Virus record (IMG/VR): IMGVR_UViG_3300017991_000388
Location: 1-24,267 of that record
Length of the DNA: 24,267 bases
Strand: one strand, 5' to 3'
DNA from: a virus
The notes below the pieces were generated by a model. That model did not search any database. It saw only the letters and a list, made by a program, of their open reading frames with translations, and had not been told where the DNA came from. Both the position numbers and the translations under genes were made by a program. Of the stretch, positions 2,771 to 24,267 are shown one piece after another (the stretch's first letter is position 1; each line of letters begins with the position of its first letter).

Positions 2771-5614
2771 CTATCGACCAGGCTCAAAACCGCCTTGGCC
2801 TTCGGTATCAGGAGGCACAATCATCTCTCCTGTGTTAGTGCTTTTAATTGATCTAAACGTATCAGCACCCGCTCCACGCTTTCGTTGTACAAGCTGAGTT
2901 CCTTTAAAGGAGATTCGACTATTAGCCCTGCTAATTGGAGGAATAACCTTTACGTTGTTAATAAATCCGTTTTGAAGCGAATCCTTGATAGTATTAAAAT
3001 TTTCTATTCTAGAAAGTTTGTTAAACTGCTGTAGATTGAGTCTACTGTAGACATCAAACTCCGTTAGGGATTTTCCAATACCATTAATAGATAGCTCGTA
3101 GTTGGTATCTAGTTCTGTAATTATTTCTTTTAAAAGTCTAAAGCTAGTTTTCTGTCTATTATGCGTGTATTCTGAACTGCTTTTAAGAACGCCCCTGTCT
3201 CTATACGCAGTTTTGAACTCAGAATCCTCTACATTAATCACAGTCTGTCTAGCTTGGGTATCCTTATTGCCATAAACATCCACGGCATCTCTACCAATAG
3301 TGGCGTATCTAATAAATTTATTTGTCTGAGTATTCGAGAACTCTGGAACGATTGATGTTTTACATCTTAAAACTCTGGTTATTGTTCCATCACTTTCAAT
3401 CTCTTGAATCTGTGATTTTTCATTAAACAAATTGTAATCTGATCTGTTCGTTGGGTACAACAAGATGAACCAAGGAATCTGTCTAGTAAGGAGTGGAACG
3501 GTCTTGTTTTCTTTTGGAGAATCAAAAATCATATCTGTTTGTGTCAGATTAATTTTACCTGTACTTTCAACGTAATCAAGCAACAAATCAGAATCATCAA
3601 GCACGAAAACTCTTTTATTTGCTTTATACTTAATATACTCGTCGGCTGCTTGCTTTCCTGCCACAGTAGATGTGTCCACTATGCCATACTCCACAGTTGT
3701 ATCTTTTAATAAAAAAGATCCTGTCAATGCTGGTTTAGTATTTAAAGTTTCTAAATTAGCACTTAGCAAGTAATATTCTTGTCGTGGAGAGGATAGAGAA
3801 GAATCGAACTCGATACTTGACGCCACTGAAGGAGAGGCACTAGCCGTCAAAATTCTTCCACCATCCCCACCTAACAAATTAATAATATTTTGCCTGGTTT
3901 TCTCTGGTAACAGGAACGCATGATCTTTCTCAGACTCAGCAAATAACCTTTGGGTTCTACCCCCAATTGTTATGTTGATAAAATCTCCGTCTTGTAATGA
4001 CAAAGAGTTATTATCAATAAATGTACCATCATCGTTGATGTAGTATTTCTTCTTAACCCCGTTAATCGTGATTGGGATATGCATATCAACATCAGAGGGG
4101 AGCACTTTCCAGTTCTTTATAATTTCTTGATCTCTACCAGCTAACTGATTCTTGTCTAATGTAAACTTATGGTTATCTATCAACGACATCGCAGCTACTT
4201 CATTAACTTGCGGAAGAACAGATTTTTTAATTACAACAGGAACTCGCTTCTGGCTATCTTCAGCGAGCCTGGTTAAATAGCTGATTGATAAGTTGCCAAC
4301 AGTCCCATCAAGGACTCTAGAACCAATCATATTAAATATTTGATTTATTGAAAGATCTGTGCCATCATAGTTTTTAATCTTACCTAAGAGTTGTTTTACT
4401 TTAGGCTTAAGATTGTCATAAATTACTTCTGGAGTTATCCCAGCAGCCTTGGTGCTTTCCCAGTTACCCCCTTTATTTGTATTTTTTAAAGTGTAGTACA
4501 GGTTACTGTTGATTTTTTTATTAAAAAGTTCAGTATATTCAGTATCGTTGGACACTAGCTTAACAGGGTCTGGTGTTGTCTGAAAGGCAACCTTACTATC
4601 TTGTATTCCAAAAGGTTTTTGTTTTAAAGCATTTGCAATAAATGTGGGATTGTTTAAATCAATCACCCCCTTCAAGACAGAATCATCAGTAACTCCACTT
4701 TCAGGTCCTGGTAATTTTCCTATAACACCCCCCTGTCCAGCATTACCATCAGGTACTACAGGACCATCAGGTACTACAGGACCATCAGGTTCGTCTGGAA
4801 CATCAGGACCTTGTGGAGGAGTTATGGGTCCTCCATCAAAGTCTACGCTATCATCTATAATTTCAGGACCATCAGGTTCGTCTGGAACATCAGGACCTTG
4901 TGGAGGAGTTATGGGTCCTCCATCAAAGTCTACGCTATCATCTATAATTTCAGGACCATCAGGTTGATCAATAGGAATAAGAATTTTTGTAAAAGTTACT
5001 TTTACATTTTTACAATCACCCGTACATGTTTTTATTGTAGCTGGTGCACTAGTGAGGGGATCACCTTCCCCTAACACCACTGGACTTTCAGAACAATCTT
5101 CTCCTGGATTTGCTCCCTGTCCTATAGCTTCTTGCGTTACCTGATAAGTAACAATAAACCCAGCAGGAACAAAAGTGTTTTCTATAAGCTCTGCTTTAGC
5201 ATTATCTATTATGGTTTCTAAAGAATCAGGAGGGTTGTTCTCAGGAACATCTTTACAATCAAATTGATAAATAACAGAAAATACAGTCCCTCCCCCCAGG
5301 CCAGTTGTTGGTGTGAGCTGGGCATCTGGATTAGTGCAAACACACCTACAATTTGGACCTGTTGCGGCAGGACCCGCTCCAGTACCAGGGGTCGCCCCTC
5401 CAGGAGCTGCGCGTGCGCCTGACCCTGGTTGCCCAGGTGGTGGTGGAGGAGGTGGTGGTGGAGGAGGTGGTGGAGGTGGTGGGGGTGGTGGAGGTGGCGG
5501 TGGAGGTGGGTCTCCACCGCCTGAATCCACAGTTCCTCCATTATCAAAATTAGGGATATTTCCAGGTGATAGACCAGGAAGAAAGTCTCCACACCCAAAT
5601 GTACTTTTAGCCAT
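2771..5614 (-). CDS. Large virion structural protein with polyproline hinge and 29-residue tandem repeat; function unknown
   Basis: This gene encodes 947 residues. Residues 1-35 form a short head with a GCG motif. Residues 36-60 are 25 consecutive prolines, and about 61-90 are Gly/Ala/Pro-rich. About 91-210 is a Cys-rich region (CRCVC, then DCKD, EDCSES and TCTGDC). About 222-290 is an acidic Pro/Asp repeat region, including two exact 29-residue copies. From about 300 onward the protein looks globular and mixed, ending in a basic stretch (QRKRGAGAD). I do not recognise a named domain. Its place at the end of the tail block, after baseplate and fibre-like genes, suggests a peripheral baseplate, whisker or fibre-like virion protein built on extended linkers. 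The start overlaps the upstream stop as TAATG, with AAGGAG unusually close (2 bases). Translation of 25 prolines should depend heavily on host EF-P. Confidence 0.85.
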   Translation of the reverse strand: MAKSTFGCGDFLPGLSPGNIPNFDNGGTVDSGGGDPPPPPPPPPPPPPPPPPPPPPPPPPGQPGSGARAAPGGATPGTGAGPAATGPNCRCVCTNPDAQLTPTTGLGGGTVFSVIYQFDCKDVPENNPPDSLETIIDNAKAELIENTFVPAGFIVTYQVTQEAIGQGANPGEDCSESPVVLGEGDPLTSAPATIKTCTGDCKNVKVTFTKILIPIDQPDGPEIIDDSVDFDGGPITPPQGPDVPDEPDGPEIIDDSVDFDGGPITPPQGPDVPDEPDGPVVPDGPVVPDGNAGQGGVIGKLPGPESGVTDDSVLKGVIDLNNPTFIANALKQKPFGIQDSKVAFQTTPDPVKLVSNDTEYTELFNKKINSNLYYTLKNTNKGGNWESTKAAGITPEVIYDNLKPKVKQLLGKIKNYDGTDLSINQIFNMIGSRVLDGTVGNLSISYLTRLAEDSQKRVPVVIKKSVLPQVNEVAAMSLIDNHKFTLDKNQLAGRDQEIIKNWKVLPSDVDMHIPITINGVKKKYYINDDGTFIDNNSLSLQDGDFINITIGGRTQRLFAESEKDHAFLLPEKTRQNIINLLGGDGGRILTASASPSVASSIEFDSSLSSPRQEYYLLSANLETLNTKPALTGSFLLKDTTVEYGIVDTSTVAGKQAADEYIKYKANKRVFVLDDSDLLLDYVESTGKINLTQTDMIFDSPKENKTVPLLTRQIPWFILLYPTNRSDYNLFNEKSQIQEIESDGTITRVLRCKTSIVPEFSNTQTNKFIRYATIGRDAVDVYGNKDTQARQTVINVEDSEFKTAYRDRGVLKSSSEYTHNRQKTSFRLLKEIITELDTNYELSINGIGKSLTEFDVYSRLNLQQFNKLSRIENFNTIKDSLQNGFINNVKVIPPISRANSRISFKGTQLVQRKRGAGADTFRSIKSTNTGEMIVPPDTEGQGGFEPGR
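4777..4965 (-). repeat. Exact 87-bp tandem duplication plus partial third copy
   Basis: The unit at 4777-4863 is repeated without change at 4864-4950, and the first 15 bases recur at 4951-4965. In protein this is a 29-residue unit rich in Pro, Asp and Gly (DGPEIIDDSVDFDGG and PITPPQGPDVPDEP). Just downstream in the gene, at about 4750-4780, a shorter DGPVVP unit is also duplicated. Identity at the DNA level indicates a recent duplication. Confidence 0.95.
5435..5509 (-). repeat. Polyproline tract (25 Pro codons); G-rich plus strand
   Basis: These are twenty-five uninterrupted proline codons written with 15 CCA, 8 CCT, 1 CCG and 1 CCC. On the plus (template) strand this is a run of GG pairs able in principle to form two-layer G-quadruplexes. 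The mixed codons argue that the protein sequence, rather than a simple trinucleotide slip, is being kept. Confidence 0.95.
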
Positions 5615-11616: not shown

Positions 11617-12222
11617 TTAGAAATTCAAGGTCCAACGGAATATGAGACTAAAATCACTAGTCTTTCGTATATTACTAAATGTTCTATAACAAACTAAAAT
11701 AGATCGGTCATCGTTAGCCGCTGTAGGGTTTTTCATAAACATACCAATCTCATTAATATTCAAGTCTTCCGATGAATCCCCTTGTAGGTTATTACAAGCC
11801 TCCTCATCCAAAACTAAAGTGTATCTAACTGATGAGTTACCAATTCGAGTTACTTTGTTGCCAGGTATTAATGCAAAAGCTCTATTAGAAATTAAGGAGT
11901 TTGCTACTATTTGGCTATTAACACTTATGAATAAATTACTATCTGTTCCATACTGCGAATCTGAAAGTTGACCAGATAATTGGTTGATGGCGCTAGTGAC
12001 CCCACCTGCTGGAGGACCAGAAACTCCTACCTGGAACCTGTCAATTTGGTAATCAAGAATACTGTCGGAACCTGATCCAGTAAAAAGATAGGAAAGGCCC
12101 ACACCCATTCCCGATACGATAATATTACTATCGTCTAAAAGGACTTCCTCATCCCCAGTATTCCATTTACGAATAATGGTAAGGTGCCCTGTAATGCCCA
12201 TGTCTTCAGCAAAATTTTTCAT
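11617..12222 (-). CDS. Small virion protein, paralogue of the upstream 370-residue gene
   Basis: I choose the ATG at 12220-12222 (201 residues) because it forms an ATGA overlap with the stop of the gene before it, like several other junctions here. The ATG at 12238-12240 would add six residues and overlap by 22 bases, with no ribosome site. GGAG lies 11 bases before the chosen start. Features shared with the 370-residue neighbour, in the same order, are an opening beta segment with a charged turn, a D/H-N-I/M-(I/L)-V-x-G pattern near residue 40 (DDSNIIVSGMG), a central INEIGMF segment, and a C-terminal CYRTFSNI then FRWTLNF. These patterns are common in small fibre or baseplate accessory proteins. 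The molecular role is unknown; a structural or fibre-adaptor job is inferred from position. Confidence 0.78.
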   Translation of the reverse strand: MKNFAEDMGITGHLTIIRKWNTGDEEVLLDDSNIIVSGMGVGLSYLFTGSGSDSILDYQIDRFQVGVSGPPAGGVTSAINQLSGQLSDSQYGTDSNLFISVNSQIVANSLISNRAFALIPGNKVTRIGNSSVRYTLVLDEEACNNLQGDSSEDLNINEIGMFMKNPTAANDDRSILVCYRTFSNIRKTSDFSLIFRWTLNF

Positions 12223-13331
12223 CGGAAATATATTCTCCATTTAATGGTCAAGTCTTGGTACTGACTCAAGCCTGCTGTTGTAGAAGCGACTATGTTAGTG
12301 CTAAAACCTTTTCTACAAAATAACTTGTACTTTCTAGGATTATTTACTAGAGCAAACTCAAAAGGAGGGGAATTTCCAGCCTGAAGGGACTTTTTCATAT
12401 CAATAGACCATAATCCAAGATCAGTGATTCCACCATAAGCGTTTGCAAATAAACAATCATCTTTTGATAGTGACACAGTATACTCTACAAAAGGGAACCC
12501 CTCATAATCATTTGCTGGTGCCTCTGCTGATAAGCACAAGCCACTAGCCCCACCACTGAAATTTAAACCAGCATGAGGCACAGAACTCATGACCATGTTA
12601 ACAAAGCCTCCACTATCCATGGAACTTACTTCATTAAAAAATCCACCTACAGAAGTATGTTTTTCAGAGAAAGTAGTAATATCAAGGGGATCATAAAATA
12701 CAAGCTTATTTAGTGTTCCATGTGGAGCACTACTTCCATCAGGGAAACAACCTACAATAGATCCTCCCACCGTTCTAATAGTTTGCCCAGCAGCTCCTGA
12801 CGCCAGGACAGGAAAGTTTTGCTCTAAATAACCGCTCGCTATCGCACTTGGCAAAAAGTTTTGAAGTTGCCCATTTGCTGAGAATATAGAACTGGGACTA
12901 AAATTACTGACTGTACCAGCAATATCGCATCCTTCTTGTAATAAGATCTCCTCTGGAGTTGGGGCTTTCGGGAACCCTGGGTCTGATGGCACTTTAGTAG
13001 CAGCAACATCATCTTCAGGGAATAATGTGACATTAGCTTCGAGTCCAGCTTGAACAGTACCCCCGTACTCAGCTTGGTATAACAAGAGAGAATTATTGCT
13101 AAAAGTGTGACCATTTCTACTAAAAGCTTCAGGCCCTGTTCCAAAAGAGATAGCGTTGATTCTGTAGTTTGAAGCATCTAATATGGATGAAGTGGCATGA
13201 TCCTCGACCCCAGAGAGCGAACGAGATACTGTCATAATGTCAGCCAGTAGCTCACCGCCACCATTAACGAGCATATTATGCTCCTTAAGGATCATCTTAT
13301 CCCCTTTCCAAATTTCTACTTCACCTCTCAT
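12219..13331 (-). CDS. Virion protein related to the downstream 201-residue protein
   Basis: This gene encodes 370 residues. It opens with GEVEIWKGDKMILKEHNMLV followed by a Gly-rich turn. A central ISFGTGPEAF is the type of beta turn found in phage fibre and baseplate accessory proteins. Near the C-terminus ITDLGLWSIDMKKS, LFCRKGFSTNIV and DLTIKWRIYF parallel INEIGMF, CYRTFSNI and FRWTLNF of the next gene. About 150 extra residues in the middle account for the larger size. There is no signal peptide or membrane segment. The start overlaps the stop of the hydrolase-like gene as TAATG, with AGGA about 9 bases before it. Probably a structural protein between the enzymatic baseplate appendage and the beta-helix protein; the exact role is not known. 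Confidence 0.8.
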   Translation of the reverse strand: MRGEVEIWKGDKMILKEHNMLVNGGGELLADIMTVSRSLSGVEDHATSSILDASNYRINAISFGTGPEAFSRNGHTFSNNSLLLYQAEYGGTVQAGLEANVTLFPEDDVAATKVPSDPGFPKAPTPEEILLQEGCDIAGTVSNFSPSSIFSANGQLQNFLPSAIASGYLEQNFPVLASGAAGQTIRTVGGSIVGCFPDGSSAPHGTLNKLVFYDPLDITTFSEKHTSVGGFFNEVSSMDSGGFVNMVMSSVPHAGLNFSGGASGLCLSAEAPANDYEGFPFVEYTVSLSKDDCLFANAYGGITDLGLWSIDMKKSLQAGNSPPFEFALVNNPRKYKLFCRKGFSTNIVASTTAGLSQYQDLTIKWRIYFR

Positions 13332-15346
13332 TATTCTTTTCCTGATTGTTCAATAAAGTAATGGAGAGCATCAAGCTTACCAGAGTTTAGTCCGAAGTCT
13401 TCAGAGAATCCAAACTGACCAGCATTTGTAGTACGAGTATGCATTCCGAAGTGGCTAAACTTTACCTCATCATTTATAGCAGATAATCCACTAATAAGTT
13501 CCTTGTAAATGTTTTCCATTGCAACAGAACTAGATGTCAGTTGTAGAATACGAAGCTCTGGATCAGTTTCAGGACTTCCAGCAGCTCCAGGAACATCAGC
13601 CTTTGAAGGTGTTAAGTGAGAACCACCTTCGTAAATACTTATTTTTATTCCTCTTGGGGAGATTACAGAATCATGAGTATTGAAGTCTGAAATTCTATCC
13701 TGAACATCATTATTCATGATACTAATCAAAGCACTAACGGCAGCATCATTACCAGTCATAGTGTTCGGAATACTACCTGAGGCTTGATACCAAGCACTAG
13801 CGTCCGCCCAATCAGATATGTTGTAGATAACAGGATCTCCAAAAGCAAAATCAGGAGCCTGTTTTGCTACGATGATGTGGTTAGCAGAGAAATCTACACC
13901 GTCAATAGTACCATCAGCGGTAACATTGTAAAATACACCAGAGGTGTTAGCAGCAGGCATTGAACCCGTTTCTGGGTTCCAGTCACCAGAAAATATTACT
14001 GGAAGAGTATCGTCGAAGCTTGGGCTGTAATACACATAACCACCAATAGCAACAAGATCGACCACAGTGGAGGTTTCAAGGTTTACTGCGGTAGTTGCTA
14101 AATCTCCACCAACCCCTCCGAACGCAGAGGCTCCAAAGTAGCAAGCACCGTCTAGGTTTCTTTCTACAATGAAAGTATTTACTTGCTGTCCCGCTACAAC
14201 ACGAACAATCTCATCAGTTGATCTTCCTCCAGCAATGTAGGAGTCATAAGCCCACCTAAACAGTTCTGCTGACTTTTGACCGTGGAAGTAGAGTCTACCC
14301 GTAAAAACGTCCCCAGGAAGAGCGGCAATGTCAGGGTTGGATGCTTGTTCAATAATATAACTTGCTTGAGAAAACAAACTGTTCCAAGTTTCATTAGACC
14401 ACTCAAGATATAGTTTTAGGCCTGGGTTTAGGTTATCGCGAATGTAGTCTACCCAATAAGTAATCAAGCTTTCCTGTGCCAAGTGTGGTGTTGGGATCCA
14501 CATGTCCGTATTGGTACGGTTAGCTAGATCCACCATCCATTCAATAGGTAAAGACTTTGTAACATCAGAGTGGCTAAAGTAATCAATGGGGTTTAGATTA
14601 CCAGAAGTATCTTCTACTGAGTTATTAGTATGAATCCAGTCTAAGTATCTAATGTATGAGAACCCACTAAGGTCATCTAAGAAGGCTTGCTGCCAGGGCT
14701 CGGCGTCAAGATCATCATTTACAAACTCATTTTGATATAGTTTGATCTTATCTACTCTTGAGTTAGGGCCTACATAAATATTCAAAGTACCCCCATTATA
14801 TTGGAAAGATACTCTTGTATTACCGTTAGGAAGAGTGCCGAGAGAGGTTAGAGATTTAAACCCTGCTGCATCTGCTGGCTCTAGAATCTGAATGTCGTTA
14901 GGTGAAGAATTAACTGAGGAGAACTCAACTACATAAGTTCCCGTCGGAGCTGTACCGTTATTTCCATCTAGCAAAACTGCTCCAGCGGATACAGCAGTGT
15001 CCCATACTAAAGGATATCCGTTATCATCGTAGGAAGTTATAGCTCCGTTATTATCATTAGTGCCAAAGTTATATGCATCAACGGCACTCTGTGATAATTT
15101 TAGCCAACTACTCTGACAAATGTGGAAAATGTCCTTACGCATCTTGTGGCTAGGTTGGAAAGAGTAGAATGGAGAAACATTCACTCCTATTTCAATACCA
15201 CTAGCGGGGTTAGCCGCCAAAGGTTCACCCCCGCCACCAGGATCGCCGCCACCACCAGGATCGCCGCCACCACCAGGATCGCCGCCACCAGGGACAGCCC
15301 CTACGGGCCTATTAACAAATATAGCAATGTATTGATTAGTTGGCAT
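13331..15346 (-). CDS. Glycoside hydrolase-like virion protein (clan A-type fold inferred) on a Gly/Pro/Asp hinge
   Basis: I choose the ATG at 15344-15346 (671 residues) because AAGGAGG lies 9 bases before it. An upstream in-frame ATG at 15415 would add 23 residues, 11 of them Lys or Arg, and has no ribosome site. After a short N-terminal segment comes a hinge of GGGGDP repeats (about residues 19-38). The large domain contains YIRYLDW, IPTPH, then YLEWSNETWN with Glu319, and much later ISIYEGGSH with Glu573. A glutamate after Asn in a W-S-N-E motif and a second glutamate in Y-E-G-G are placed like the acid/base and nucleophile of retaining clan A hydrolases, and similar sequences are often labelled cellulose-binding or cellulase-like. 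A likely job is degrading or holding a surface polysaccharide during adsorption. The substrate is unknown and activity is unproven. Confidence 0.78.
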   Translation of the reverse strand: MPTNQYIAIFVNRPVGAVPGGGDPGGGGDPGGGGDPGGGGEPLAANPASGIEIGVNVSPFYSFQPSHKMRKDIFHICQSSWLKLSQSAVDAYNFGTNDNNGAITSYDDNGYPLVWDTAVSAGAVLLDGNNGTAPTGTYVVEFSSVNSSPNDIQILEPADAAGFKSLTSLGTLPNGNTRVSFQYNGGTLNIYVGPNSRVDKIKLYQNEFVNDDLDAEPWQQAFLDDLSGFSYIRYLDWIHTNNSVEDTSGNLNPIDYFSHSDVTKSLPIEWMVDLANRTNTDMWIPTPHLAQESLITYWVDYIRDNLNPGLKLYLEWSNETWNSLFSQASYIIEQASNPDIAALPGDVFTGRLYFHGQKSAELFRWAYDSYIAGGRSTDEIVRVVAGQQVNTFIVERNLDGACYFGASAFGGVGGDLATTAVNLETSTVVDLVAIGGYVYYSPSFDDTLPVIFSGDWNPETGSMPAANTSGVFYNVTADGTIDGVDFSANHIIVAKQAPDFAFGDPVIYNISDWADASAWYQASGSIPNTMTGNDAAVSALISIMNNDVQDRISDFNTHDSVISPRGIKISIYEGGSHLTPSKADVPGAAGSPETDPELRILQLTSSSVAMENIYKELISGLSAINDEVKFSHFGMHTRTTNAGQFGFSEDFGLNSGKLDALHYFIEQSGKE
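15239..15292 (-). repeat. 18-bp tandem repeats encoding a GGGGDP hinge
   Basis: Units at 15239-15256 and 15257-15274 are identical, and a third at 15275-15292 matches for its first 16 bases. They encode Gly-Gly-Gly-Gly-Asp-Pro repeats joining a short N-terminal segment to the hydrolase-like domain. The composition is that of a flexible linker. Confidence 0.92.
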
Positions 15347-15355
15347 TCTTTTGAT

Positions 15356-15362
15356 CCTCCTT
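15356..15362 (-). promoter_or_regulatory. Strong Shine-Dalgarno (AAGGAGG) that fixes the hydrolase-like gene start
   Basis: This is the clearest ribosome site seen in the window, 9 bases before the ATG at 15344-15346. It lies inside the reading frame of the longer alternative start at 15415, so it argues for the shorter protein or for two products. The strength suggests high expression or re-initiation after the 74-base gap that separates the chosen start from the preceding stop. Confidence 0.75.
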
Positions 15363-15420
15363 AAGAGTCCTCTCATTGAGAGCATTATTTTCTTAAATGG
15401 TTTTTTCTTTCTCATGATAT

Positions 15421-18400
15421 CTAGACTCTAATAGCGCCATCCCATTCAGGATGAACTCTGTAGTTCAATCTACTTCCCCCACTAACCTCTAGAGTTCCTG
15501 ATGTGATTGTAGCATCTCTAGAAGCTATAGTGGTAGCATACTGTCCAACTCCTTGGCCTATTAATCCATTATAGAACTTTAAAACATCGCGAAGTTGGTC
15601 TTTTGATAGTTCTAATTTATTTTCTTTTACAAATGGACGTAAGGGAACTCCACTAGTCTCTACACCATAGCCTGTTCCAATTCCAGCGTTTTCTCTTTGA
15701 GTTAGATCTTGAAGCTCGATGGAATCAATGAGTAGGTATTTTTTTTCATTATTTGTTGGAATAAAGAAGATTTCAACAATATAATTAGTATCATCCCTAT
15801 GAACTTGTTCAGTAATTTTATATTCGGGATTCTGTATAGGGATAATGTCTAGGTACTCAGAGTTGTTCTGGTCAGTAAAGTTTCTAGTATCAAACTCTAC
15901 AACAAAATCTTCAAAATAAGAAGACCTAATGTTATTTAAAGAAACATCATTAATAATTGTTTCAGTTTTAGTTAGGTTATTTATACATTTTACTTGATCA
16001 GCAGGCTTATTATTAAAGATATACTGATGAGATAGAGTGTTTATTACAGTGTTTATTGATATATCAGTTTCTCGTAAAGGTTCCCACTTGTGGTTTGGTG
16101 TCCAGTTCCACATTAGTCCACTTACTGGTTGAGTATGAATCCAAACTCCAAGCTTACCACCGCCTAGAATATCTGAGTCCTCTTCTGCAATCAAAGACTT
16201 AACCTTTAGGCTAAATTTATGATCCTTGATGAAGTAGTTCCTTCTATCACCATAGGACGACAAATCAAATCTGATTCTAGGCAATCCACCTACAGACTTA
16301 CACTTGATAACTCTGTTGTTTATTAAGTAGTTTTCTAAACCAAAGACTTTAAATGCAGAATCTAAATCAAAAATTCTAAATTGGTTAGCTGATGGAGCGC
16401 CTGAAATGTCGCAGAACTCAATACCACTCAGGATAGCAGGATTCCTGTACTCAGCGTTGTTCACATTTCCAGAAACAAAGCTTCCTGATAAAGGAACTAC
16501 ACTATCCCCTGAATCGCTTGCTATGAAGGTTCCGTCACCGCCCTCATTCCACACACTAACTACATCAATCGCACTGGCTGAATCTACACTAGAAGCTACT
16601 AAATTGCTTACAGCGGAACCATCTAACTTCATGTCACAGTTGAACAATCCAAGTCCAAAAACTTGACCAAAGATATTACCACCAGTCTTGTCTATCTCAT
16701 TTAAATTAAGTGGGTGTTTAGCAAAATACTTACAGTAGTCTCGATGTAGTTTGTGTAGTCCGACCCCGAAACTAAAATTTTCATAATCAGCAAATGAATT
16801 TAGGACAAAGCCACTAGCAATTGCTTCATTTGCTAAACTTTGAGCGTTGTTCTTCCAGTATGAATCAGGGTCGTAAATGGACGTAGATGATAAAATTTGG
16901 AATGCATTATCCAGAGCTTTAGTTTCATAAAACTCATGCATGGTGTTATAAATCTCAGGCAATTGGCCCCTGTCAATATACCTCGCGGTGGCAAGAGCTT
17001 CCTCTGGCACCTTCGCATTTGATCCTAAATCAGATAATCCTCTATAAGGGAAAGTATTACTTGTGGGTATTCCAGAAAAAATATTATATGATGTTAGGTC
17101 TTCACATTCATTCCAAACGCCTGTTGGATCTACAGGATCGTCCACAGGATGGAACTTGCCCGCAGAAGCAACGTAACCTAGTGTAAGCTCACCTAAAGAC
17201 GAAGGCATAGACGCCTCAAACGTCGAAGCATCGTAGCTCACAGGGCCATTGAAGCCCGTCCTGTCGTAGTACCCTTCGTGAGGTAGCAGGTACTTCAGGT
17301 TGCGCCTACGCATCGCCCTTCGAGCCACACTGCCATGATCAGTAATAACCGCTGTTCCTGATATTAGGGCATCCGAGAAATCATTAGCGTCTGCTCTCTT
17401 GAATGTATTTAATCCTCCACGACCACCATCGGATCCACGCCCGTCATCTCCACCACCAGTAGCAAACGACATTGCGGTACCACTAAACTCAAAGTTTCCA
17501 AAGATAGCCGCAGAAGTGTATCCTGCCCTTGTATCATCATGGTCTAAACCCAAGTATTCATACTTAGTGCTAGATGCATCATAATACTCCTCTCCACTAG
17601 CACCTAAATTAACTTTGGTTATAGCGTGAGCTGGAGCAAACTCCTTAATAACTCTGGCTGCCTCGTATAAAGCATACTTACCATCACCTTCAAGAGTGGT
17701 CTTAGAGAAATCAAATTCAGTGTCTTTAAAGTTTATAAATAAGTGAGAAGATTTACCATTCCACAAACTTAGCAAGTTTTTCTCATAATCAGAAATACTT
17801 AGCATTACCTCATCAAAATTTGGAGGAATCTGAACAGAACTAAAGAACATTAAAAACTTATTTAAAGATCCAAGATCTGTTCCGTCTGTAACTGAACTAC
17901 TAACTATGAAGTTACCGACCTCATCTGCAAAAGAATCTGTAACTTGAAAACACTTTATTTTTTCAACTAAATAGTCTACCAATACTTCGCTAACTATACA
18001 CTCTTTATAATATTTTATTTCTTCAAACGGGGGAAGTGGATAGTTAACTCTTCCTCGGTAACTAAAAAGGAATTCTAAATCACCAACAAATTTAAGATAT
18101 GTTGGAAACTTTCCATTGCTGGGGTGAGATTCCCCTGCCATATACACACCCTCTCCCAAAGGTCCAAATGCATAGGCAGCATCAAAGGCATCCCCTTGTC
18201 CAAGTAGCTTAGCCTGATTTTTAAGAAGTTGAAAATTTTCATCGGTGGGTTTATGAACATGAAATGGCTTCATATCAGGATCACCGATAATTGTATATCT
18301 TCCTACTTCAGATCCATCATTATTAAGTTCAATGAATTCTGGAACTGGGAAGGGGCTGCCATGAAATATAAAGCTCTTGGGATAAGCTTTATAAACGTCT

Positions 18401-19782
18401 AGCAGGACACTATCAGTAACTAACTTTAAATTTTCTTCTAGACTGCTGGTGTTATAAGCACCTACACCACCTTTTAATGCTAAATCAGGAGTCCAAGTAG
18501 TAAGATTTTTGAATAGTGGAGACTTCGTTCCTAAACTATACCAAATAAGATGTGGGATATATGATTCCCACAATTCTTCAACCTTACCCGAAAGATCGAA
18601 AACGGAATCAATAATCAAAGTATTGATGGCAGTCTGGATTGCTTCAACGGTTCCCGATTTTTTGTATAAATCTATAGCAAGTCTGAGTTGTTGTCTCCAC
18701 TTTGCGGGGGAACCACCTCGAAGCCTAAACCCGATTAAATCTGCAATATACTGTAGCTGGTCATCCCTAACATTTTCTATGTCGTATATCAGCCCAATGT
18801 TTTCTATCTGATCTGTGACGTCTGCGAACTGAAGTCCCATTAAGTTTGTGAACTTTCTATGAGGACCTTTTGATACTCGGTCCTCTAATTCTGTTCCCGC
18901 ATCAATAAAACTATCAAAAGCATCTCGAACGGTGTAGTCCCTTTGGTCGATGTACAGGGGTGAGTAAACAATATCAACCAAAGTCTGTAGTGCGTCTAAC
19001 TTCTGTGTTCCACTTGTATACGTCGCAACCACACCATCACTCGCGTCTAAAATGGCATCAGCAGTTCCAGAAATAAAATCACTAGGTAGGTAAGACCCAA
19101 AGGAGCAGGTTTCGTTGTTTCTCCAAAGATACTCGGTTAGCCCCCGTATACCATCAACTGTCTCCAAGGTGTTTCCAACATACAAGGAGTTCAGTGAAGA
19201 CAAGACATAACTTGAAGGCGAGTAATCTAATCCACCATCAGCCGAAGTGTTTAAGAAGTAAAACCACCCTAGCGTATCTACAAGGTAATTGTGAACTGAA
19301 CTAGCATCTGCATTATCAGTTAACGCTGACAGGGTAGAAATGTTTGCTTCTAGGGAACCTGGCTGTGTTTGTGATGCAGGAACAATCAAGGGCAGTAAGG
19401 TGCCCGATAAGTAAGTATTGAATTGCCCGCTGGTATCGTAATCCGCTAATGAAGTTCCAAGAGGTAAAAGAATTTTAGACTCAAACAAAAATGGATTAAT
19501 CTTTGTAAGCTCGTTTTGCTTTACAAAGTATTGAGCTATACCATTTATGCTCCCTAGTGAATTTGTTTGAGTATTAGCAACTCCAGACAAGGAGATTACA
19601 TTAGAGATATTATTTGCTAGTGATAAGTGCTTATTGATTAAGTCCGAAACAGGGTTTAGTTCAGTGCCACTAAGCTGTAAATCTTTCTCCTGATATATTT
19701 CAGGAGTAATTAATTCAAGCAACTCTACAAAATTTGTTTTGTAGTAGTTTCTAGATTTTGGTGTGTATTTATTAATTCCCAT
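15421..19782 (-). CDS. Large baseplate wedge protein, P2 gpI / T4 gp7-like
   Basis: This gene encodes 1453 residues and directly follows the gp6-like gene. At about 317-378 it has the features of the phage tail protein I (gpI) family: NVRDDQLQYIADLIGFRL, then WRQQLRLAIDLYKKSGTVEA and a helix leading to an NTL turn. In contractile tails the gpI/gp7 protein is wedged with two gp6/J subunits and gp25/W and links the inner baseplate to its periphery. The protein is longer than T4 gp7 (about 1030 residues). The extra C-terminal two thirds include a Gly/Asp/Arg-rich segment (about 770-790), an Arg-rich stretch (ARRAMRRRNLKYLLP, about 818-832) in unusually GC-rich DNA, and beta-rich sequence to the end. 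The start overlaps the gp6 stop as TGATG with a weak ribosome site, consistent with translational coupling. The wedge role is well supported; one-to-one equivalence with gp7 is less certain. Confidence 0.82.
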   Translation of the reverse strand: MGINKYTPKSRNYYKTNFVELLELITPEIYQEKDLQLSGTELNPVSDLINKHLSLANNISNVISLSGVANTQTNSLGSINGIAQYFVKQNELTKINPFLFESKILLPLGTSLADYDTSGQFNTYLSGTLLPLIVPASQTQPGSLEANISTLSALTDNADASSVHNYLVDTLGWFYFLNTSADGGLDYSPSSYVLSSLNSLYVGNTLETVDGIRGLTEYLWRNNETCSFGSYLPSDFISGTADAILDASDGVVATYTSGTQKLDALQTLVDIVYSPLYIDQRDYTVRDAFDSFIDAGTELEDRVSKGPHRKFTNLMGLQFADVTDQIENIGLIYDIENVRDDQLQYIADLIGFRLRGGSPAKWRQQLRLAIDLYKKSGTVEAIQTAINTLIIDSVFDLSGKVEELWESYIPHLIWYSLGTKSPLFKNLTTWTPDLALKGGVGAYNTSSLEENLKLVTDSVLLDVYKAYPKSFIFHGSPFPVPEFIELNNDGSEVGRYTIIGDPDMKPFHVHKPTDENFQLLKNQAKLLGQGDAFDAAYAFGPLGEGVYMAGESHPSNGKFPTYLKFVGDLEFLFSYRGRVNYPLPPFEEIKYYKECIVSEVLVDYLVEKIKCFQVTDSFADEVGNFIVSSSVTDGTDLGSLNKFLMFFSSVQIPPNFDEVMLSISDYEKNLLSLWNGKSSHLFINFKDTEFDFSKTTLEGDGKYALYEAARVIKEFAPAHAITKVNLGASGEEYYDASSTKYEYLGLDHDDTRAGYTSAAIFGNFEFSGTAMSFATGGGDDGRGSDGGRGGLNTFKRADANDFSDALISGTAVITDHGSVARRAMRRRNLKYLLPHEGYYDRTGFNGPVSYDASTFEASMPSSLGELTLGYVASAGKFHPVDDPVDPTGVWNECEDLTSYNIFSGIPTSNTFPYRGLSDLGSNAKVPEEALATARYIDRGQLPEIYNTMHEFYETKALDNAFQILSSTSIYDPDSYWKNNAQSLANEAIASGFVLNSFADYENFSFGVGLHKLHRDYCKYFAKHPLNLNEIDKTGGNIFGQVFGLGLFNCDMKLDGSAVSNLVASSVDSASAIDVVSVWNEGGDGTFIASDSGDSVVPLSGSFVSGNVNNAEYRNPAILSGIEFCDISGAPSANQFRIFDLDSAFKVFGLENYLINNRVIKCKSVGGLPRIRFDLSSYGDRRNYFIKDHKFSLKVKSLIAEEDSDILGGGKLGVWIHTQPVSGLMWNWTPNHKWEPLRETDISINTVINTLSHQYIFNNKPADQVKCINNLTKTETIINDVSLNNIRSSYFEDFVVEFDTRNFTDQNNSEYLDIIPIQNPEYKITEQVHRDDTNYIVEIFFIPTNNEKKYLLIDSIELQDLTQRENAGIGTGYGVETSGVPLRPFVKENKLELSKDQLRDVLKFYNGLIGQGVGQYATTIASRDATITSGTLEVSGGSRLNYRVHPEWDGAIRV

Positions 19783-21362
19783 CAGTCTAACAAGATTATT
19801 GATATTGTTAGATTATTCAATTGAATAATCTCATTGAAATCAATCGTAACATCTTGATCAAAATCATCTATTGTAGAAATTCTTACTTCATCTATTTCAA
19901 ATATTTGTCTGTTTAGTTCAGCTATATTTAAGTCTTCACCAAAATCACGATTGTCAGCGTTCATATAAGTTAAAATTTTATTTCTAACTTTTGCTTTAAT
20001 TTGTTCTTGATTATTTTCTAGTTCTTTATCAATTGAAATTGTTACATTTAAATCAAGTGTTCTAATTAAACCGTCAACAATAACAATATCATCAGTTGCC
20101 ATCTTTTTCTTAGCTATGGCGTCTAAAAGCTGTGTTTTAAAGTTTGTTGTAGCCTTTTGGAGCTGTAAGTCTGATGCTTTTTCTAGAACATAAATATCAA
20201 TAACATTCGCAGATGCATAAGCTTTTCTTGTAGCTGCTGTGGCCTTTCCAATTGTGCCAAAGGTGCTAATAAAAGTGTTAGCAAAAACAGAATAGTCTTC
20301 TAGAGTAACTAAGCGATCTTGTCTTCTAAAGTTTAATGGAGCGTACTTTTTTGCATGTTCAATAGTCTCGGCATTAGAACCACCAGTTCCTTTACTTGTA
20401 TTAGTTACTGTACCAATTACGGGACCTCCTGTTGTGTTAAGTTGTATAGAGGCATTTATGGTATCTTTTTCAATATTGCCTCTAGTCCCCCCGCCCACAC
20501 GGTACTCAACCCTAAATGTTGCTGAGTCCGTTGGAGACACGCCTACTGATCCATCACCAAAAACTATTGTAGCGTTATATTCATCATCATAAATAACTTC
20601 AAAAATTTTGTCTGAAGATCCAGAAGCAAAATAAATATTGTCAACTTCCGAGTAGGCTCCTTTCACTGAATCATTTAAACTATTAACATAAACCAAAATA
20701 CTGCCTTCAATAACAGGTCCTTGACTGAGTTTGATTGTCTTAACTCCTTCTGTAGCAGCAAATTCCCCAGTCTCACTTACCAAAGCTCCTTCCTGCAATA
20801 CAAGATTTGTGTATACCTCTCCTGAACCATCGTCGGAATCAGTGGGTAGTAATCTAATAATTCCTGTATTATTCACAGTATCAACCAGCCCATTTTCAAC
20901 TTTATATAAAGTATAACTTAGTGCTCCACCGTCCTGAGGAGAGGTAATATTTATATTTCTATTTTCTGGAGTTATTGTGCCTGTTGAGGGTGTTTCAAAA
21001 GTGATTTTAGCGTCACAGGCGGCTGATAGTGGACCCCTCATTCTAATACCAATAAGCTCAAGCAACTTCTTTACACTTGATCTCTGCTTCGCAGTCGCCA
21101 AGAAGTTTTCATTAGCCAGCATGTCTGCCTTCATAGACATCACCGCGCCCATGTAAGCTGTAAGCTCAAGGAACATTAGACCTAAATCTGATTCCACAAA
21201 ATACTTATAATCGTTTGGATATACCGTTTTGGCGTAATCAATCAATGATTGACGCAAGGTGGTAAAGTCTGTAGCTGCAAAATTAATAAAGGATGGACGC
21301 TTAGAAACTGGTATTGTAGTCAGCTTCATAAAGTCTGAACCAATTGTTCCAGAAAAATTCAT
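19782..21362 (-). CDS. 6: Baseplate wedge protein gp6-like (baseplate J family)
   Basis: This gene encodes 526 residues, somewhat shorter than T4 gp6 (about 660). The N-terminal part (VYPNDYKYFVESDLGLMFLE and the following helix, which includes MKADMLANENFL) and the central GDGSVG motif with AEYRVGGGTRGN-type sequence (here VEYRVGGGTRGN) are typical of the baseplate J/gp6 family. The last third, with repeated ELENNQEQIKAKVRNKILTY-like helices, fits the dimerising C-terminal arm. gp6 dimers form the continuous ring around the baseplate hub that triggers sheath contraction. The gene starts in an ATGA overlap with the gp25-like gene and ends in TGATG with the large wedge gene. The gp25, gp6, gpI/gp7 order matches the conserved wedge core of contractile tails (W-J-I in P2). 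Confidence 0.93.
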   Translation of the reverse strand: MNFSGTIGSDFMKLTTIPVSKRPSFINFAATDFTTLRQSLIDYAKTVYPNDYKYFVESDLGLMFLELTAYMGAVMSMKADMLANENFLATAKQRSSVKKLLELIGIRMRGPLSAACDAKITFETPSTGTITPENRNINITSPQDGGALSYTLYKVENGLVDTVNNTGIIRLLPTDSDDGSGEVYTNLVLQEGALVSETGEFAATEGVKTIKLSQGPVIEGSILVYVNSLNDSVKGAYSEVDNIYFASGSSDKIFEVIYDDEYNATIVFGDGSVGVSPTDSATFRVEYRVGGGTRGNIEKDTINASIQLNTTGGPVIGTVTNTSKGTGGSNAETIEHAKKYAPLNFRRQDRLVTLEDYSVFANTFISTFGTIGKATAATRKAYASANVIDIYVLEKASDLQLQKATTNFKTQLLDAIAKKKMATDDIVIVDGLIRTLDLNVTISIDKELENNQEQIKAKVRNKILTYMNADNRDFGEDLNIAELNRQIFEIDEVRISTIDDFDQDVTIDFNEIIQLNNLTISIILLD

Positions 21363-21823
21363 GATATGGTAACTCCGACATCAAATACTTCCAAGTCAGA
21401 CTTGTCCAACTTTAGTGTGAGAATTACTTGTAAAGAGTTGCCCCCTGCTGGACCAGCTTCTCCTAAGGGAAACACAGCAAGCTTGGCGATTCTTGCTCCC
21501 ACAATGTAGTTTCTAAATGATGTTTCTATTTCGTTTCTAATTCCTTGGAAGGTGGATTCGTCTAATGGTTGAAATAAATACTTTCTAAGATTACACCCAT
21601 AATTAGGTAGCATTACTCTCTCACCCCGCTCAGTTAAAAGTAGCTGCTCAACTGAGTTTTTTATCATGTTTATTCCAGAAGACTTAGAAAATATACCCCC
21701 GTTAACCTTTGAACCCAGTGGATATTGGAGTCCATAGATTTCCTGCTTCTGGCTTCTTACAGGTTGGATGTTGTATCTTTCCTGTATTTTTCCATAAATA
21801 TTTGTTGTAAGATTAGCTGCCAT
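21359..21823 (-). CDS. 25: Baseplate wedge protein gp25-like (GPW/gp25 family)
   Basis: This gene encodes 154 residues, against 132 for T4 gp25. The family core is clear: SSGINMIKNSVEQLLLTERG, then GERVMLPNYGCNLRKYLFQP, then a helix (ESTFQGIRNEIETSFRNYI) and a beta strand (LQVILTLKL). The protein has the fold once described as lysozyme-like, but in phages it is a structural wedge subunit that initiates sheath assembly around the tube end. The start overlaps the stop of the LamG-bearing gene as TAATG, and the stop overlaps the gp6 start as ATGA. The extra N-terminal stretch (about 40 residues, including IQPVRSQKQEIYGLQYP) is longer than in T4. Confidence 0.95.
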   Translation of the reverse strand: MAANLTTNIYGKIQERYNIQPVRSQKQEIYGLQYPLGSKVNGGIFSKSSGINMIKNSVEQLLLTERGERVMLPNYGCNLRKYLFQPLDESTFQGIRNEIETSFRNYIVGARIAKLAVFPLGEAGPAGGNSLQVILTLKLDKSDLEVFDVGVTIS

Positions 21824-24267
21824 TAGATCTTAATATTTTTGAAAAACCCCTGCTGTGCATCATAGTTTTTCTTTACTTCCGAAGTATTTAGAGGTCTAGA
21901 ATAAAACTTTAAACTTCCTATGTGTCCACGAAGACCACTAACCACACCCCCTCGATCTCCTCCCAAGAAATTACCATGTTGGTACATACCGTCAGTGTAC
22001 CCTCCCCCCACGATCCAAGGTGTATAGAAGGGGTTTAGTAGCGGACCTTGCTTTACAGTCGAAGGTCCATCTACAGTGGTTGAAGAGTATTGGAAACTGT
22101 TATCTTTCTTGAATGAAGGTAGTGATGGGCCAATACCTTTATCTACTCCGAATACAGAAGTTATAGACGATGTAGCTACAAGAGAACCATCAGCATACAT
22201 TCTTATTTCATCTTTTTCAGGTTCGCAAGCAATATCAATTAGAACAAACTGAGAAGACACATCTCCAAAAGGAGTATCTTCTAAATCTACTTTCATTTTA
22301 TAGAAAGTTTCACTCTCTGGGCATTTTTCATTATTAATAAATGAAGCTGATGAGGAGTCTCTAGCTTGAGTTGGCGCTATGAAGAAACTCAAAGAAGACA
22401 CTGGATCGTTGTCGTAATTATTATTACTAAACGGAGCAGTATTTTGAGTTATCCTTCGGTCTCTAGTAAATCCACAAAGCATACCACGAACAAACTCACC
22501 GCTCCTTTTATTCTTTAAGAAATCTAAATCTGTAATTTGACCAGTGTGATCAACCGCAGACACGTTAGGATTTTTTCCAGTATTTTCACATCCAAACAAG
22601 ACTTTTGTTAAAGAAGAAGGAGAAGGTGTTCCTGGGGAAGATCCACTAGCCCAACCTAAAGCGCCATCCGTAATATTTGGAACATGAACCCAACATTCAA
22701 CAGTAAATCCAGTTGACGAATAAGTTAGATCTCTAAACTCTGGGGTGTCTGGTAGTTTGATGAATGATCCTAGAGCGGAAGCTCCTGCTGGGTCTGTGCT
22801 CTTGTTCTTCACTATACCTTCTAAGTATGGGATGGCTAATCCTGAAAAGAAGATAGACTGCTTTGATGTTCCCACAAGCTGTGCATTGTTGTACATGTCT
22901 TCCGTAGCACAGTTTGTGACATTGAAGTTAACTGAGGAGGGCAGCTCCAAAGAAGTATCCAAGAAGTTGTAGATGGCAAACAATCCGTTAGAAACCACTT
23001 GATCTGTTAGAGACAAAACAGTTCCAGCATTAGTAGAAGAAGGTGTGTATATAATTCCACCCTTTCCAACAGTAGGAACTTTTAATTGGTTAAAACTTAG
23101 AGATGGTGGTTTGGGCTGGGCGGGCTTCACAAACTTAGTCTCTAGAGGAAGCACAATACCTTCAATTTCTGCCTGCTCGAATACGAGAGCTTTCTGCTTT
23201 TCTAAGTCCACAGATAAGTTATATTTTTGTAGGTAAGAAAAATCGTTAATTGGGACTTCCCCAGGAGGGAACTCTGGAGCGGTCAATCCCCCATAAATTT
23301 GACCAGCTTTTATTGCTACCTCAATTTGTTTTTTTCTTCTGTTTATTTTAGTGTTATGATTAGCAATTTCGGATATAATCAAGTTTCGCTGATTAGTTAC
23401 AATTGAGGTGCCCTCACCAAACTCTGAAATAAAACCAGTTAGGTCTGAAGAAAGGTCATAAACGTGCTTGTCCCTTTGTTGTTTTAGAACAGCTAAGAAG
23501 TGATCCTCATCATAGTAATGTTGAATTCCAACACTATCATCAACTTTATTTGGATCAAAAATGTTATCAGTAAATTTGTCTAATGCTTCTAAAGAGATAG
23601 CCTGACCCTTACCTCCTAAGTTTGGATCGTAATCATATTTCCAAGCATCTCCCACAGGTACGACTCCAGAAATAGCTAAGTAGACAGGATCTAACCCCCC
23701 TTCGTAGGAGTCGTAATACAATCCATCATTTGTAAGGACGTAAAAACCAGCAGTAGTAATAGGAGGTCCATAAGTTAATCTGAAAACATCCTCATCCTCC
23801 TCCAAACCAGGATCTTCTAATGTAGTCCTATCAAATGTGGTGTCATTTAAGAATTGATCTAGCTCTGCTGAGTCTAAGAACTTTGGCTCTAGGGAGGGGT
23901 CAGCCGCACGCGCAGCTAAGATGTCATTGATTATCGCAATGGTTTCGTTAGCCGCTTGAATGAAGTCTCCCGCCTCTTGTAGTTTAGCTTTCTCCGCTTC
24001 ATATGCCCCGTCGGGTTCTGGAGGCAGTGCTGCTTTTTCTTCAGAAGAGTTACCTGATTTAAAGTTTTGAAGAGTGCTTAACTTATCAATACAATTTAGT
24101 ATGGCATCAATTTCATTCTTTGCACTTGTAACATTTTGATAAATCTGAGCCCCAAAAGATGATGCGTACTGGAGTGCTCCTAGTAAGCCAGCTAGATTAC
24201 TCTTTTTTTGTTTGTCATCATTATCAATGCCTAGCCAAGCTGAGTCAGACTGAAACTTAAAAGTTCC
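21823..24267 (-). CDS. Large virion structural protein with C-terminal LamG/ConA-like domain (5' end outside window)
   Basis: The frame is open from the stop at 21823-21825 to the right edge, at least 814 residues. A TTG at 23803-23805 is internal, since sensible sequence continues upstream of it. The visible N-terminal 150 residues are helical and rich in Ala, Asp and Lys. A further helical, coiled-coil-like region (about 290-330, including TKINRRKKQIEVAIKAG) precedes a Pro-rich linker (FVKPAQPKPPS). The last 300 residues have the laminin-G-like jellyroll pattern: FTVECWVHVPN, then EIRMYADGSLVATSS, and finally GSLKFYSRPLNTSEVKKNY. Such domains bind glycans or protein partners, so this protein could mediate host recognition or virion display. 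Its position directly before gp25 suggests a baseplate component. LamG identity is good by pattern; the ligand is unknown. Confidence 0.85.
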   Translation of the reverse strand, partial: GTFKFQSDSAWLGIDNDDKQKKSNLAGLLGALQYASSFGAQIYQNVTSAKNEIDAILNCIDKLSTLQNFKSGNSSEEKAALPPEPDGAYEAEKAKLQEAGDFIQAANETIAIINDILAARAADPSLEPKFLDSAELDQFLNDTTFDRTTLEDPGLEEDEDVFRLTYGPPITTAGFYVLTNDGLYYDSYEGGLDPVYLAISGVVPVGDAWKYDYDPNLGGKGQAISLEALDKFTDNIFDPNKVDDSVGIQHYYDEDHFLAVLKQQRDKHVYDLSSDLTGFISEFGEGTSIVTNQRNLIISEIANHNTKINRRKKQIEVAIKAGQIYGGLTAPEFPPGEVPINDFSYLQKYNLSVDLEKQKALVFEQAEIEGIVLPLETKFVKPAQPKPPSLSFNQLKVPTVGKGGIIYTPSSTNAGTVLSLTDQVVSNGLFAIYNFLDTSLELPSSVNFNVTNCATEDMYNNAQLVGTSKQSIFFSGLAIPYLEGIVKNKSTDPAGASALGSFIKLPDTPEFRDLTYSSTGFTVECWVHVPNITDGALGWASGSSPGTPSPSSLTKVLFGCENTGKNPNVSAVDHTGQITDLDFLKNKRSGEFVRGMLCGFTRDRRITQNTAPFSNNNYDNDPVSSLSFFIAPTQARDSSSASFINNEKCPESETFYKMKVDLEDTPFGDVSSQFVLIDIACEPEKDEIRMYADGSLVATSSITSVFGVDKGIGPSLPSFKKDNSFQYSSTTVDGPSTVKQGPLLNPFYTPWIVGGGYTDGMYQHGNFLGGDRGGVVSGLRGHIGSLKFYSRPLNTSEVKKNYDAQQGFFKNIKI

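Follow-up and report, generated by a model that had tools for sequence, protein, structure and literature searches.

The window analysed here is a 24,267-nucleotide stretch of viral DNA (IMG/VR record IMGVR_UViG_3300017991_000388). On one strand and contiguously, it carries a baseplate operon in the order gp25-like, J-like, 1453-aa, glycoside hydrolase (GH)-like, 370-aa, 207-aa, 1181-aa and 818-aa genes. Five bases separate the GH-like gene's start from the end of the 1453-aa gene, and at its other end the stop codon shares bases with the start codon of the next gene (TAATG). The genes around it are as follows.

21359–21823, minus strand: gp25-like baseplate gene (PF04965, E = 6.2e-12)
19782–21362, minus strand: gp6/J-like baseplate gene (TIGR02243, E = 2.4e-39, below that model's cut-off)
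15421–19782, minus strand: upstream 1453-aa baseplate gene (gpI/gp7-like), without an NYTxVEFDN-like C-terminal tail
13331–15415, minus strand: GH-like gene, a complete ORF of 694 aa with an ATG start; orthologue at the same place in L001/L207
12219–13331, minus strand: downstream 370-aa gene; 46 related contigs have it immediately after the 1453-aa gene

The phage group is uncultured and T4-like, and its genes include a gp25-like, a J-like and an S77 prohead protease gene (window 3–24267). The gp7/gpI label of the 1453-aa gene is based on gene order, after the gp25-like and J-like genes, together with a sub-threshold Tail_P2_I match (E = 0.026). With the label read in this way, the first-pass annotation was right to place the enzyme directly after a wedge gene and, as it lies between baseplate-operon genes, outside a lysis cassette. 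The same annotation had the gene occupy 13331–15346. Its end stands, a real minus-strand ORF terminating at 13331, but its start does not: 15346 is the internal Met24 of the 694-residue ORF, and 15415 is the better start because the 23 residues upstream are common to the orthologue in L001, which shares 84% amino acid identity with the window protein. The plus strand of the interval 13331–15346 is full of stops. From N- to C-terminus, the protein is laid out as follows.

15281–15415, minus strand: N-terminal segment, residues 1–45; a basic helix at residues 7–22, then QYIAIFVNRPVGA; candidate virion anchor
15224–15289, minus strand: Gly-rich hinge (GGGGDP)n, residues 43–64; four units in the window, two in the orthologue
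15176–15196, minus strand: barrel strand β1, residues 74–80, from the window model and alignment
14720–15118, minus strand: β-sandwich module, residues ~100–232, between β1 and β2; carbohydrate-binding-like in the models
14024–14719, minus strand: barrel β2 to β6, residues 233–464; R256 and Y460 invariant in the family
14381–14401, minus strand: WSNETWN, residues 339–345; predicted acid/base E342 (14390–14392), after β4
13748–14023, minus strand: insertion after β6, residues 465–556; mostly low-confidence or disordered in the model and missing from most relatives
13334–13747, minus strand: barrel β7 to β8, residues 557–694, from the window model, the alignment and a dN/dS of 0.07
13616–13633, minus strand: YEGGSH, residues 595–600; predicted nucleophile E596 (13628–13630), end of β7

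Both glutamates singled out as candidate catalytic residues in the earlier reading are present, in WSNETWN and YEGGSH, and its GGGGDP hinge is found as four GGGGDP/GGGGEP units. The proposal that this hinge tethers the domain to a short segment that could be an anchor holds in part: the segment and the hinge exist, but nothing identifies the segment as an anchor. Residues 24–71 have low pLDDT in the window model. A signal-peptide-like hydrophobic stretch was looked for in the N-terminal segment of the window protein and none was found. Hinge excepted, the segment has no similarity in the other ORFs of the related group and is conserved only in one orthologue; its 45 residues show no link to any known docking element.

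AlphaFold predicts that the window protein adopts a (β/α)8 barrel, with a core confidence above 90. A relative, L092, modelled with an input of 90 sequences, gave a mean pLDDT of 96.1 and a pTM of 0.92, with the eight barrel strands in order and a β-sandwich between β1 and β2. In this model E257 lies three residues past β4 and E401 two residues past β7; the two map to E342 and E596 of the window protein, in which N341-E342 follows the strand 335–339 and E596 comes directly after the strand 592–594. The two models were computed independently, and their strands fall at matching places. Clan GH-A enzymes are built on a (β/α)8 barrel with an Asn-Glu acid/base at the end of β4 and a Glu nucleophile at the end of β7, and these two catalytic carboxylates, about 5 Å apart, carry out retaining hydrolysis. 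Fold matches in the PDB were overwhelmingly to clan GH-A hydrolases at a probability of about 1.00, including GH10, GH79, GH53, GH5, GH1, GH51, GH42 and GH164, with moderate TM-scores (0.35–0.45 by query length) among which no single family stands out; searching BFVD with the first model turned up nothing convincing. The TIM barrel that the first-pass annotation had proposed is thus borne out by the predicted fold, by candidate glutamates at the ends of β4 and β7 and by the clan GH-A matches. By fold and residue placement, the barrel looks like one that works in the manner of a clan GH-A enzyme, activity being what we infer from these two features. The likeness to the clan (GH5, GH10, GH39, GH42, GH51, GH53, GH79) covers the predicted barrel, the Asn-Glu after β4 and the Glu at β7, as well as an Arg on β2 and a Tyr after β6, whereas the β-sandwich between β1 and β2 and the lack of a profile link to GH5, GH10, GH39 and GH42 set the window family apart.

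In keeping with this separation, hhalign profile-profile comparison to GH5, GH10, GH39 and GH42 returned probabilities of 0.1–1.4%, the same as column-shuffled decoys, while the four profiles link to each other at 90–97% in the same set-up. Judged by profile, the window protein falls outside these four families, and we make no family assignment because the comparison gave nothing. The window protein drew no meaningful match from Pfam, NCBIfam, PHROGs or PDB sequences, and 43 family members had no relevant Pfam, NCBIfam or PHROGs model, the glycosidase families GH5, GH10, GH39, GH42 and GH51 included. Weak PDB sequence matches to cellulosomal scaffoldin (E 0.08–0.4) span the sandwich only and were not used. 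The enzyme had been described as a type not seen in T4; this fits and can be taken further, since no match to it was found in 50,697 phage records. The literature yielded the GH25 precedent discussed below as the only find for family terms, and nothing relevant for the motif text.

Viral relatives were collected by scanning IMG/VR with a pair of degenerate DNA patterns that stand for [LVI]E[WY]SNExWN, followed by iterative HMM searching, which recovered 105 homologous ORFs in viral contigs. Iterative HMM searching also recovered 88 bacterial ORFs. A small family carrying MSKIEWTNETWNPIxGC, also caught by the EWSNE pattern, is unrelated and was removed by the HMM step. A search with the window protein by itself found one viral orthologue only. 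The bacterial genome scan, for which the 43-row family alignment was too diverse a query, gave at least 573 stretches with a family match; the 80 kept come mainly from Planctomycetota, Saprospiraceae, cyanobacteria, Armatimonadota and Chloroflexota. R256, E338, N341, E342, W344, N345, Y460, Y595 and E596 are invariant across 90 diverse aligned members. The E342 motif formed part of the search pattern and E596 did not, so that the invariance of E596 is independent evidence. With the family recovered in viral contigs and bacteria alike and E596 invariant in 90 of 90, the GH-like ORF is not a chance one. On these searches the family is large and widespread, and unnamed in Pfam, NCBIfam and PHROGs. 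The bacterial [LVI]EYSNExWN/YEGGQH proteins (Planctomycetota, Saprospiraceae, cyanobacteria, Roseobacter plasmids) belong to the same family at 23–37% identity in the best segment and share the barrel, sandwich and invariant residues, but many look secreted and some are fused to RTX-like repeats or GH16. In a quick tree, which places no donor for the phage gene, the window branch is long and groups with other long branches. A cluster of viral-contig members of ~500 aa (L042, L051, L067, L076, L082, L119) has a short hydrophobic N-terminus, with YEGGQH retained in those that the alignment displays.

The genes near viral relatives in unrelated phages include those for a head-tail adaptor (L092), portal (L062), tail sheath (L122), major head proteins (L013, L118) and terminases (L005, L053), a recurrent pattern among loci picked by hand rather than a measured enrichment. 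Relatives on Roseobacter and Paracoccus plasmids have glycosyltransferases and a nucleotide-sugar dehydrogenase in their vicinity, and one such relative is fused to a GH16. Across the wider bacterial neighbourhood the glycosyltransferase signal is mild (the commonest family accounts for 4 of 118), and because of this we claim no substrate.

The operon itself offers a comparison of filled and empty sites. With the 1453-aa gene as query, at least 80 related loci were found in IMG/VR, while neither the 1453-aa nor the 370-aa protein has a match in the 50,697 phage records. In the 46 contigs where these two genes adjoin, the GH-like gene is absent; it stands between them in 2 of 48 genomes (the window and L001/L207), and the stretches fetched from other contigs of the group hold no family member. 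Where contigs without the insertion show this end, the 1453-aa protein has an extra tail of ~10–20 residues, often ending NYTxVEFDN, whereas in both insertion-bearing phages it stops shortly past HPEW. The insertion was therefore accompanied by a change in the C-terminus of the 1453-aa protein. Elsewhere in that protein, lengths of 1973–2007 aa in L250 and L252 suggest a large internal insertion; match spans are longer in L244, L245 and L251 too. The N-terminus of the 370-aa protein is the same throughout the group, but additional modules bring the protein to 659, at least 880 and 1173 aa in some contigs (L223, L250, L252), and it is probably a variable adhesin.

Between the window and L001, dN/dS is about 0.12 in β2 to β6, and β7 to β8, at 0.07, is the most constrained large part of the GH-like protein; both ratios put the barrel under purifying selection. 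The β-sandwich has a dS of 1.58 against 0.2–0.35 on both sides, which points to its replacement by recombination with the catalytic part kept. The sandwich thus looks swapped between the two phages. In the adjoining 370-aa gene (window 12219–13331, L001 8031–9140) dS is 0.07, other compared genes having 0.3–0.7, and by this measure the gene contains a recent recombination tract.

We consider it reasonably probable that the GH-like protein is an accessory virion-borne glycan depolymerase, a reading in which activity, virion location and substrate are all deduced. Virion location is plausible given the contiguous baseplate operon, the lack of a signal peptide and relatives in structural modules; without such a peptide, the protein would reach an outside glycan most simply by riding on the virion. 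One small lineage of the T4-like group would have acquired a stand-alone depolymerase gene. The N-terminal segment and flexible (GGGGDP)n hinge would hold the enzyme on the tail or baseplate, the β-sandwich after strand 1 would probably serve as a sugar-binding module, and E342 as acid/base, after Asn341, and E596 as nucleophile would cleave the glycosidic bond with retention of configuration. The enzyme may in this way cut host exopolysaccharide, capsule or sheath glycan en route to the receptor. A more ambitious version is offered tentatively, as we think it somewhat less likely to be right than wrong: an unnamed, widespread GH family, by fold a separate branch of clan GH-A, may have been taken repeatedly into phage virion modules, and here a stand-alone baseplate enzyme may have been gained whole, docked by an N-terminal peptide that replaces the lost wedge-protein tail and retargeted by sandwich swaps.

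The same barrel could instead belong to an enzyme that never joins the virion: made in the infected cell, it would act on glycans that are intracellular or released, say by freeing progeny from host slime at lysis or remodelling host sugars, and would have no more than the late operon in common with the baseplate genes. N-termini that are signal peptides or lipoprotein-like in some viral relatives (L092, L042 group), the secreted look of many bacterial ones and a gene found in so few genomes of the group, and so dispensable for assembly, all fit such an enzyme. However, the window protein lacks a signal peptide, its gene sits between two genes of the baseplate operon at distances that resemble translational coupling, and it carries an N-terminal segment and hinge while its relatives recur in structural modules; we regard this account as unlikely, though worth keeping in mind. 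A catalytically dead barrel acting as a baseplate lectin or receptor-binding adhesin is more improbable still. The binding-like β-sandwich, hinge and module swap do recall adhesin evolution, yet both carboxylates and R256, N341, Y460 and Y595 are invariant in 90 members and β7 to β8 is the most constrained large part, so the lectin that the first-pass annotation had allowed for loses ground.

Cell-wall cutting from the virion has known examples. In T4, gp5 is a virion lysozyme that cuts peptidoglycan. A Bacillus jumbo phage has Gp255, a stand-alone GH25 peptidoglycan hydrolase reported to be part of the virion and to interact with a protein of the baseplate (PMC4870245). Like Gp255, the window protein would be a stand-alone glycoside hydrolase linked to the baseplate, and this precedent is what would speak for a virion lysozyme here. 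Gp255 differs in being a GH25 enzyme with a LysM-type part, of another family and with another probable substrate, and its virion presence was shown by proteomics, whereas that of the window protein is a prediction. With a fold that is GH-A-like rather than lysozyme-like and some bacterial relatives lying close to polysaccharide synthesis genes, a peptidoglycan target is very improbable. Searches of Pfam, NCBIfam and PHROGs found no lysozyme, amidase or peptidase domain, and an endolysin or lysozyme was rejected on these grounds and on the position between baseplate genes. A trimeric β-helix tailspike was likewise set aside, the model being a barrel with a β-sandwich and no right-handed β-helix. 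Such tailspike depolymerases, for example those of Klebsiella phages KP32 and KP34 and of P22 (PMC6205948, PMC10653864), share the proposed role of degrading surface polysaccharide from the tail, but the window protein is a barrel on a flexible hinge, added to the operon's other genes rather than replacing one.

The protein ties a large bacterial family, unnamed in Pfam, NCBIfam and PHROGs, to a testable activity through two named residues and a high-confidence model. The 46 empty sites, two filled ones and an altered partner protein form a natural experiment on a T4-like tail gaining a surface enzyme. To our knowledge, enzymes that degrade environmental exopolysaccharides are poorly known, and this one, if active, would be a tool for cutting them. 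Elsewhere in the window, a 947-aa protein (2771–5614) has a long unbroken proline run near its N-terminus, and an 814-aa protein (21823–24267) has a sub-threshold LamG/ConA-like lectin match (PF13385, E = 8.4e-4).
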